From positions 1-64,000 of the forward strand of contig NZ_NKXO01000005.1 in NCBI RefSeq assembly GCF_002843425.1: a stretch of 64,000 nt of DNA. The letters run 5' to 3'. Positions within the stretch are counted from its first letter, which is position 1, and each line of letters begins with the position of its first letter. A program made the translations under genes and the position numbers. The notes under the pieces were generated by a model. It was given only the letters and a program-made list of their open reading frames with translations. It was not told the DNA's origin and did no database searches. Below, piece by piece: positions 48,085 through 50,335 of this stretch. The stretch is from Raineya orbicola (GTDB taxonomy: Bacteria; Bacteroidota; Bacteroidia; Cytophagales; Thermonemataceae).

Positions 48085-48651
48085 ATGTCTGATGTTCAAA
48101 CCCATATTATTGAGGCTTGCCGCAAGCAATGCCCCAAAGCTCAACGCAAACTTTACGAGCAATATGCCTCTAAAATGTTTGCGGTGGCTTTGCGTTATAC
48201 TTCGGGAAGGCTTGAAGCAGAAGACGTTTTACAAGAAAGTTTTATCAAGGTTTTCAATCATATCCAAACTTTTCGGGGTGAATGTAGTTTAGAACATTGG
48301 ATAAAGAAAATTGTTATTAACACGGCTCTCAAACAAAATCGTAGTAAATTATACTTGTTTCCTGCCTTTGATGTGCAGGATTTACCCGAAGAGTATCAAG
48401 AAACTTGCGAAATTTTGGAAAATTTAGAATATGAAGACTTGCTCAATATGGTGCAAAGTTTAGCACCTCGTTACAGGGTAGTTTTCAACTTATACGCTAT
48501 TGAAGGCTATCAGCACAATGAAATAGCTGAAATGCTCGGTATTAGCGAAGGTACTTCCAAATCACAATATGCAAGAGCAAAGCAAATTCTCAAAGAAATG
48601 ATTTTGCGAGAAAGCCGTCAAACCCAAAAGCCAAATTATGAAAGGTCTTAA
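48085..48651 (+). CDS. ECF-type RNA polymerase sigma factor
   Basis: From ATG 48085 the 188-residue protein has sigma region 2 (ALRYTSGRLEAEDVLQESFIKVFNHI, in parts ALRYTSGRLEAED and VLQESFIKVFNHI; then FRGECSLEHWIKKIVINTA) and region 4 (LAPRYRVVFNLYAIEGYQHNEIAEMLGISEGTSKSQYARAK, with the HTH at YQHNEIAEMLGIS). Region 1.1 and most of region 3 are absent, as in the extracytoplasmic-function group. It should direct RNA polymerase to a stress regulon. Its last 14 bases overlap the start of the next gene, a membrane protein with the features of a cognate anti-sigma factor. An earlier in-frame start at 47998 lies upstream of the promoter. Confidence 0.93.
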   Translation: MSDVQTHIIEACRKQCPKAQRKLYEQYASKMFAVALRYTSGRLEAEDVLQESFIKVFNHIQTFRGECSLEHWIKKIVINTALKQNRSKLYLFPAFDVQDLPEEYQETCEILENLEYEDLLNMVQSLAPRYRVVFNLYAIEGYQHNEIAEMLGISEGTSKSQYARAKQILKEMILRESRQTQKPNYERS

Positions 48652-49912
48652 AAATTTTGAACATATTTGGCAAGAGAAGTTTTTACACGCTTCTGTAAAT
48701 CCTTCGGAAAGGGTATGGGAACTAATTGCTTTGCAAATTGATGAAAAACGCCAACAAAGACGCCGAAAAATCATAGCTTGGTGGGCGGCGGCAATGCTAG
48801 CTCTCTTTTTAGGCGATGGTGAGCTTTTGTATCAGAGAAAAGGACTTATTGGTGAGTGGTTTGGAGAAACGAATATTTCAAATTTTACAATTATCCACGA
48901 TACCCCTACAAACACAAATAAACTCATTTCTCCTACTCCTAAAACAACCCCAAAAAAACCTGAAAAAGCCATTACACAATATGCAAATGACACTAAAATT
49001 CTGCAAGAAAAACTATTAACTTTTCAGATAAAAGCTGAATTTGAAGTAGAAAAAGAAGCTGTTTTAGCTCAAAAACACCAACAAGAATTTAGCAATGAAA
49101 AAGTTGGCACTCCCAAAGCTAAACGTTGGTGGGTTCAGCAAGGCTTGAATGTCGGAAAATTTCAGCAAAATTGGCACTATACGCCTTCACCAATTTTAGC
49201 AGGACGTATGCTTAATACCCCGCAAGAACAAGTTATGCTTAAAAGAGAAGAGAATTTGCTCAAAGAACTTTCTACTTATCAAACTCTTTGCACTTGGGGT
49301 GCTGGAATGGATTTGGGTTTTCAAATCAATAAAAATTGGTTTGTAAGTGGTGGTTTTCAGTGGCGTAAAAGTTATGCGGTTTTTCAAAGTAATGCCCCTG
49401 TGCCTATTCTTGCAAAATTTTATGGCAATGTGCCAAATTTAGATGTTGAAGCACCGCCTGTAAGTACAATTAACTCAACTCCTAGCATAGAAATAGCAGA
49501 AGGAGGACAAAATCAAGTGGCGGCGGCTTTACCTAATCATTTAGAGGTAAGCGAAGTTACCTATCGTCATACTACTGAATTTATCAGTATCCCTTTGAAA
49601 ATAGGTTATCAGTTGCAAAAAAACAAATGGCGTGGTGCAGTTGCGGTGGGTACTGAAGCTAATTTTCTGATAAACAACACTTTCTCCTCTGAAACTGCAA
49701 CTTATTCCAGTGTTTTTGAAAAAATAAATCGTGTGCAGTATGCAGGTATTTCCGAATTACAAATAGGCTATCAGATAGCTCCAAAATTATACTTGCAGGT
49801 AACTCCTTCGTTCAGGCAGATGCTTACTCCGTTATTCAAAAATCATTCCTCTTTGCAATTGCAAAATCAAAAGTTGTGGTTTGTGGGTGTAGGTATGCAA
49901 TGGAGATTGTAA
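48638..49912 (+). CDS. Putative dual-membrane-spanning anti-sigma factor with outer-membrane barrel
   Basis: The 424-residue protein is built from four parts. Residues 1-43 form a charged cytoplasmic segment with NPSERVWELIALQI, like the PPxxVWxxI element at the N-termini of Bacteroidota proteins encoded after ECF sigma genes. Residues about 44-60 are a single membrane helix with a positive preceding stretch (KRQQRRRK). Residues about 60-160 are a polar Thr/Pro/Lys linker. Residues about 165-424 are alternating beta-strands ending in WFVGVGMQWRL, an outer-membrane barrel. The gene overlaps the ECF sigma gene by 14 bases. I infer that it holds the sigma factor at the inner membrane while its barrel senses the outer membrane. 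No signal peptidase site is visible, in keeping with this. Confidence 0.7.
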   Translation: MKGLKNFEHIWQEKFLHASVNPSERVWELIALQIDEKRQQRRRKIIAWWAAAMLALFLGDGELLYQRKGLIGEWFGETNISNFTIIHDTPTNTNKLISPTPKTTPKKPEKAITQYANDTKILQEKLLTFQIKAEFEVEKEAVLAQKHQQEFSNEKVGTPKAKRWWVQQGLNVGKFQQNWHYTPSPILAGRMLNTPQEQVMLKREENLLKELSTYQTLCTWGAGMDLGFQINKNWFVSGGFQWRKSYAVFQSNAPVPILAKFYGNVPNLDVEAPPVSTINSTPSIEIAEGGQNQVAAALPNHLEVSEVTYRHTTEFISIPLKIGYQLQKNKWRGAVAVGTEANFLINNTFSSETATYSSVFEKINRVQYAGISELQIGYQIAPKLYLQVTPSFRQMLTPLFKNHSSLQLQNQKLWFVGVGMQWRL

Positions 49913-49924
49913 AATCTTACGTTT

Positions 49925-50335
49925 ATGGTGCAAAACGTCTTAAAAATAACTTTTATTTCTTTAATGCTTGCTTTGAGCAACTTCACGGCTTGGGCACAAA
50001 AAGAAAAGACTATGAAAGTACTAACACAAAAATCAGAATTGCAAGAAAATATCGGTAAAGATGTAATTCTGGAGGGCATTATGCAAATGCAAAAATTCCA
50101 GAACAAAGCAGGGAGAATTTTTGAATTTTATGAGTTTTGGCTACAAATGGCAGATGGCACACGTGTTTTGCTTCGCAATAATATGGGGCATCCTCTTTCC
50201 AAAGAACCCTTTACACGCAAAGTTCATCTAAAAGGCAAGCTCTTTTATGGCAACATAGACAGCGAAGATGGCAAAGCACAATCTCGTCTGGGCTACCGAT
50301 TAGATTTTACCGAATGGAAAATTGTGGAACGATAG
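49925..50335 (+). CDS. Small secreted protein of unknown function
   Basis: The 136-residue protein has a clear signal peptide (hydrophobic core ITFISLMLALSNF, cleavage after TAWA) and a mature part of about 110 residues with predicted beta-strands, DVILEGIMQMQKF, FEFYEFWLQMADGTRVLLRNN and VHLKGKLFYGNI, in an order that would suit a small OB-like barrel. I do not recognise a family. It starts 12 bases after the putative anti-sigma gene and is followed by a thioesterase, so it probably belongs to the same transcript and may be an envelope protein connected with the sigma system. Confidence 0.75.
   Translation: MVQNVLKITFISLMLALSNFTAWAQKEKTMKVLTQKSELQENIGKDVILEGIMQMQKFQNKAGRIFEFYEFWLQMADGTRVLLRNNMGHPLSKEPFTRKVHLKGKLFYGNIDSEDGKAQSRLGYRLDFTEWKIVER

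Follow-up and report, generated by a model that had tools for sequence, protein, structure and literature searches.

Known anti-sigma factors that reach the outer membrane

In Bacteroides thetaiotaomicron, the anti-sigma factors of the Das1/Dma1 and Das2/Dma2 pairs are described as consisting of a sigma-binding N-terminus, a transmembrane helix, a long disordered tether and a C-terminal barrel, with the gene for a Bacteroidota-specific ECF21 sigma factor adjacent (PMC13088901). The EcfO-Reo pairs of Phocaeicola vulgatus and Bacteroides fragilis follow a comparable plan, a sigma gene and then an anti-sigma factor predicted to span from the cytoplasm to the outer membrane; the P. vulgatus Reo is described as reaching from the cytoplasm to the surface, and the EcfO regulon includes nigD genes (PMC9308784, PMC13114119). 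EcfO and Das1 pairs have been reported beside nigD genes (PMC13114119, PMC13088901). The Phocaeicola pair has been tied to outer-membrane stress and to protection from an envelope-damaging toxin (PMC9308784, PMC13114119).

In anti-sigma factors of class I (ASDI) and of class II (CnrY-type), a short helical cytoplasmic domain comes ahead of a transmembrane helix, and an ECF gene is adjacent. A class I anti-sigma neighbour is present for only 6% of Bacteroidetes ECF sigma factors (PMC7406223), which leaves most of them without one.

An overlapping pair of a sigma gene and a probable anti-sigma gene in Raineya orbicola

We analysed a stretch of 64,000 nucleotides from Raineya orbicola, a member of the Cytophagales (hereafter the window), in which an ECF sigma factor gene is followed by the gene of a candidate trans-envelope anti-sigma factor. 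The features of this pair are as follows, with the basis of each in brackets.

48085..48651, + strand: gene of an ECF sigma factor of the ECF21/EcfO/Das type, 188 aa (Pfam Sigma70_r2/r4; homolog-supported start; clade)
48638..49912, + strand: gene of a Dma/Reo-like trans-envelope anti-sigma factor, 424 aa (open reading frame; 14-bp overlap with the sigma gene)
48647..48682, + strand: helix 1 (residues 4-15), predicted to lie in the cytoplasm and belonging to the FExxW element (AlphaFold2; conserved columns)
48701..48727, + strand: PSERVWELI motif, residues 22-30, start of helix 2 (homolog alignment; motif survey)
48770..48814, + strand: predicted inner-membrane helix core, residues 45-59 (sequence; AlphaFold2; hydrophobicity comparison)
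48836..49117, + strand: disordered periplasmic tether, residues 67-160 (AlphaFold2 pLDDT mostly below 55)
49127..49909, + strand: C-terminal 8-stranded outer-membrane barrel, residues 164-424 (AlphaFold2; PDB fold matches)

An earlier note, made from the letters of this DNA, had described an ECF sigma gene overlapping its downstream neighbour and had pointed to the Dma family, of which it thought the neighbour might be a distant member. Both open reading frames lie where it placed them, sharing 14 bp (48638-48651) on the forward strand, and the sigma factor matches Pfam sigma-70 region 2 (E 3e-12) and region 4 (E 1e-15). The sigma frame is open from 47998, with the ATG at 48085 as the start favoured by homologs. 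In each of the four homologous loci from the family, the sigma gene stands upstream of the anti-sigma gene. In the window genome, which has six ECF-type matches in all, the pair is single-copy, and a search of that genome returned no second copy of the anti-sigma gene. Two long PF13568 proteins of the same genome were considered as paralogs and rejected, being ordinary barrels on reading. Neither a nigD-like gene nor a third gene of the Dma2 type was recognised beside the pair, and a five-sequence alignment of the region upstream of the sigma gene gave nothing convincing as a conserved promoter. Directly after the anti-sigma gene, at 49925-50335, lies a gene for a secreted-looking protein of 136 aa; it has no Pfam or NCBIfam match, was not found in any of the seven further family genomes searched, and is missing at the matching position of a sister locus (L002).

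For comparison, the pairs of Phocaeicola massiliensis and Parabacteroides distasonis were used as stand-ins for the named Dma and Reo sequences. In both, a barrel is present and NigD-domain genes adjoin the pair (NigD_C in P. massiliensis). The window sigma factor, which is 36% identical to that of P. massiliensis and 43% identical to that of P. distasonis, groups with these two in a tree, apart from other ECF sigma factors (support 0.983); its ECF21 assignment is this clustering with the sigma genes of Dma/Reo-type pairs, in a tree built without a labelled ECF21 reference. One ECF sigma factor (L123), which narrowly missed the E-value threshold, also lies inside the window-sigma clade, and its neighbour has a transmembrane helix.

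The P. massiliensis anti-sigma factor has both the conserved tryptophan motif (W motif) and the barrel in common with the window protein. A direct BLASTP comparison of the two is non-significant (E 0.033), whereas their barrels are matched as homologous at the profile level (hhalign 99.35%, E 6e-21). The two comparison records are filed as plasmids (OY726030.1 for P. massiliensis and NZ_OY725762.1 for P. distasonis); at least the former looks like a piece of chromosome, as it also holds an open frame that resembles, when read by eye, ribulose-phosphate 3-epimerase.

The window pair differs from the Das/Dma pairs in its Cytophagales lineage and in having no recognised nigD or third gene beside it, and it is likened to them here by their published description; relative to the EcfO-Reo type, the identity of its anti-sigma factor lies below BLASTP significance, and again no nigD neighbour is recognised. 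The suggestion of a distant Dma member nevertheless holds up, through the architecture, the adjacent sigma gene, the sigma clade and the profile homology of the barrel to those of nigD-flanked pairs. On the strength of the profile matches, the shared motif, the order of the genes and the clade of the sigma factor, the window pair is taken to be a remote but ordinary member of the Dma/Reo kind.

Proposed mode of action

We consider it highly probable that the pair forms a module of the EcfO-Reo/Das-Dma kind, in which the sigma factor is kept at the inner membrane until some change in the outer membrane is relayed inwards and sets it free. The first ~45 residues of the anti-sigma factor, with the FExxW and PSERVWELI helices, would bind the sigma factor and so keep it there; a single helix, left uncleaved, would cross the inner membrane with its N-terminus inside, a disordered tether of ~95 residues would cross the periplasm, and the 8-stranded barrel would be inserted in the outer membrane. 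The change perceived there could be failed assembly of the barrel, a ligand that it meets or the state of the lipids around it, or an altered distance between the membranes. The signal would then travel down the tether, most likely through proteolysis or a loss of hold, and the freed sigma factor would transcribe an envelope regulon. Release by proteolysis is suggested by analogy with other anti-sigma factors.

Predicted tether and outer-membrane barrel

The AlphaFold2 model of the 424-aa protein, built from 62 aligned sequences, contains the polar linker that the earlier note had read between the membrane helix and the barrel, as a disordered stretch (residues 67-160). Measured on the alignment, this tether is 99 residues long in the window protein and 86-325 residues long across the 62 homologs. 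An extended chain covers ~0.35 nm per residue, so that even the shortest tether could reach some 30 nm and the periplasm can be crossed; the minimum of 86 residues is consistent with a need to span this compartment. The barrel itself is predicted with high confidence, as eight long strands between residues 164 and 423 with a strand pLDDT mostly of 90-98. It matches Pfam PF13568 (OMP_b-brl_2) above the cut-off (E 7e-7) and resembles the membrane domains of OmpA, OmpW and OprF in the PDB (Foldseek E 8e-9, Z 17-19).

What the barrel does within such a module can be read in more than one way. A refinement that is compatible with the module explanation takes the barrel to serve only as an anchor, or to monitor how it is itself assembled (BAM status), rather than to receive an outside ligand, and gives it no role in vesiculation; to this we give an even chance. 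Within the family, the anti-sigma factor diverges strongly (22-69% identity) while the sigma factor keeps 62-91%, which speaks for this refinement, and the Phocaeicola pair responds to an envelope-damaging toxin, with outer-membrane stress sensing proposed (PMC9308784, PMC13114119); Dma2, however, is proposed to sense a surface glycan (PMC13088901). Published data favour outer-membrane stress as the cue in the case of Reo, and a glycan is suggested in that of Dma2. Vesiculation, which has been shown only for Dma1 and Dma2 of B. thetaiotaomicron, should not be assumed for the window pair. Being single-copy in a small genome, the window pair offers a simple case for asking whether the barrel senses the state of the outer membrane.

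Anti-sigma N-terminus and membrane helix

The module explanation places the N-terminal part of the protein in the cytoplasm. Counted from the motif tryptophan (Trp27), which is nearly invariant among the 62 homologs, conserved columns in the region of helix 1 fall at -20, -19 and -16, and in the AlphaFold2 model a continuous helix runs from residue 24 to 66. Within it, the hydrophobic core at residues 45-59, IIAWWAAAMLALFLG, is preceded by KRQQRRRK, from which a cytoplasmic N-terminus is predicted by the positive-inside rule. With 15 residues the core is short, and its hydrophobicity (KD 1.49) is one of the lowest in the family, which counts against the module explanation. The PSERVWELI-type motif and single membrane helix that had been proposed from the letters are both present, the motif at residues 22-30 in a part that is probably cytoplasmic, and the helix as a prediction with a positive N-terminal side. 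No anti-sigma Pfam domain was matched by the 424-aa protein up to E 1. Instead of the four-helix ASDI domain of ~100 residues, the protein has ~45 residues with two helices before the membrane core, which is smaller than ASDI (101 +/- 33 aa) and nearer to class II in size (PMC7406223). The window protein has in common with both classes a short helical cytoplasmic domain ahead of a membrane helix and an ECF gene next door; its outer-membrane barrel sets it apart from them.

Under a different explanation, the N-terminal hydrophobic segment is cleaved in the manner of a signal peptide and the protein is an ordinary barrel that is merely co-transcribed with the sigma gene. The hydrophobic core, at ~15 residues, is indeed about as long as that of a signal peptide, and annotation pipelines name proteins encoded in this position 'outer membrane beta-barrel protein' or 'porin family protein'. 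However, 44 polar residues carrying a conserved W motif would be an abnormal n-region for a signal peptide, and with the near-invariant tryptophan ahead of the helix they make cleavage unlikely. The W motif is also tied to the clade of the window sigma factor, the N-terminus is retained in relatives whose C-terminus is of another kind, and the sigma factor covaries with the anti-sigma N-terminus (see below). We regard an ordinary barrel with a cleaved signal as very improbable here. It is just as hard to credit that the downstream protein is a co-activator whose removal would lower sigma activity, for although the sign of control is unreadable from anatomy, when the Bacteroides or Phocaeicola counterpart is lost, the regulon or the phenotype increases, and does so by way of the sigma factor (PMC13088901, PMC9308784).

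Probable contact between the sigma factor and the anti-sigma N-terminus

A module of the Das/Dma kind calls for contact between the two proteins. Since the window genes lie in different frames, a relative from Siphonobacter (L079), in which the two genes share one frame, was used as a docking proxy, with the sigma factor and the anti-sigma N-terminus folded as an artificial stop-readthrough chain. The alignment for this fold held related loci and the window; unpaired anti-sigma rows, which MAFFT had misplaced onto the sigma factor, were dropped. In the resulting chain (whole-chain pTM 0.81) the two motif helices fall in blocks of pLDDT 88-97, compared with 60-81 for their counterparts when the window protein is folded alone.

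Covariation was measured over 131 sigma/anti-sigma pairs (effective number 108), with partners swapped among near relatives as the control. The mean of the ten strongest inter-protein couplings was 1.28 for true pairs and 1.08 +/- 0.07 for swapped pairs, and none of the 98 swaps reached the true value; residual phylogeny may contribute to this signal. The strongest couplings join the conserved helix 1 Glu to Y162 and K166 of the sigma factor, and helix 2 to sigma residues P17 and R21. A more specific arrangement, in which helix 1 would sit on sigma4 and helix 2 would sit on sigma2, was dropped, as its enrichment was no better than that of swapped pairs (63 of 98). Together, the proxy fold and the pairing-specific covariation indirectly support binding of the sigma factor by the anti-sigma N-terminus. 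None of the three outcomes that the earlier note named as contrary to its reading (predicted cleavage of the helix, a model lacking the barrel, no contact with the sigma factor) appeared.

Distribution among Bacteroidota

When GTDB genomes were scanned with the window sigma factor, 80 named loci were obtained, to which loci from whole-genome searches were added. Going by their titles, the named relatives are nearly all from Bacteroidota, with the search of other phyla non-exhaustive; the one exception is a Rickettsiales metagenome-assembled genome (L054), whose label is probably mistaken. Among 144 distinct sigma genes of the window type with a readable downstream open reading frame, 134 have as their next gene one whose product carries the W motif ahead of a transmembrane helix, and in 94 of the 144 the downstream start precedes the sigma stop. 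The ten exceptions are mostly Phe-for-Trp variants, mis-called starts and broken frames. In a contrast set, a loose motif pattern scored 4 of 15 other ECF genes. Recurring as it does behind 134 of 144 related sigma genes, the layout of motif and transmembrane helix is not due to chance.

At least one sigma factor of the window type (E <= 1e-40) occurs in 120 of 148 sampled genomes from the order of the window, and in 133 of 149 genomes from the order of a Bacteroidales-type genome (G008). The survey suggests that a single short motif, PxxxVWxxI, identifies a large group of such regulators well outside the gut, many of which would reach the outer membrane.

Variants beyond the window

Several relatives carry the FExxW...PxxxVWxxIxxxL motif in tandem before the transmembrane helix, with five copies in L030:4521-6200, three in L034:4639-6270 and two in L074:1213-2751; two copies are also present in L169, L093, L110, L184, L185, L194, L195, L199 and L201. 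These tandem-motif relatives occur in Cytophagales, Flavobacteriales and Bacteroidales-type genomes. In four other loci (L085:4515-5399, L097:4516-5382, L098:1915-3012 and L104:4546-5460), a type IX secretion domain of the CHU_C kind (E between 4e-12 and 1e-17) stands in place of the barrel, while the sigma type, the N-terminus and the transmembrane helix are the same; L098 also has a PKD domain. A link between an ECF sigma factor and the type IX secretion system is possible for these variants. Short variants were seen in L086 and L087, and in L099:4530-5099 and L102:4529-5098, where a 190-aa protein has the motif, the transmembrane helix and a weak SdrD_B-like periplasmic domain, and a second pair of barrel length (462 aa) lies ~3.6 kb upstream.

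A limited search of the literature found no report of tandem sigma-binding motifs or of CHU_C swaps. We tentatively picture a modular Bacteroidota platform, in which the same sigma-holding N-terminus and transmembrane helix would be joined to a barrel, a CHU_C domain or a short periplasmic domain, and in which members with two to five motifs could store several sigma factors or set a threshold for release, although we would put this somewhat short of an even chance. The novel material lies more in the tandem-motif and CHU_C relatives than in the window pair, whose family is known from gut Bacteroides.

One further locus (L115:1018-2466) encodes a clade-related sigma factor fused, in a single frame of 482 aa, to a transmembrane helix and a periplasmic segment in which no barrel was recognised, a layout that resembles the fused-sigma layout reported for Dma3.
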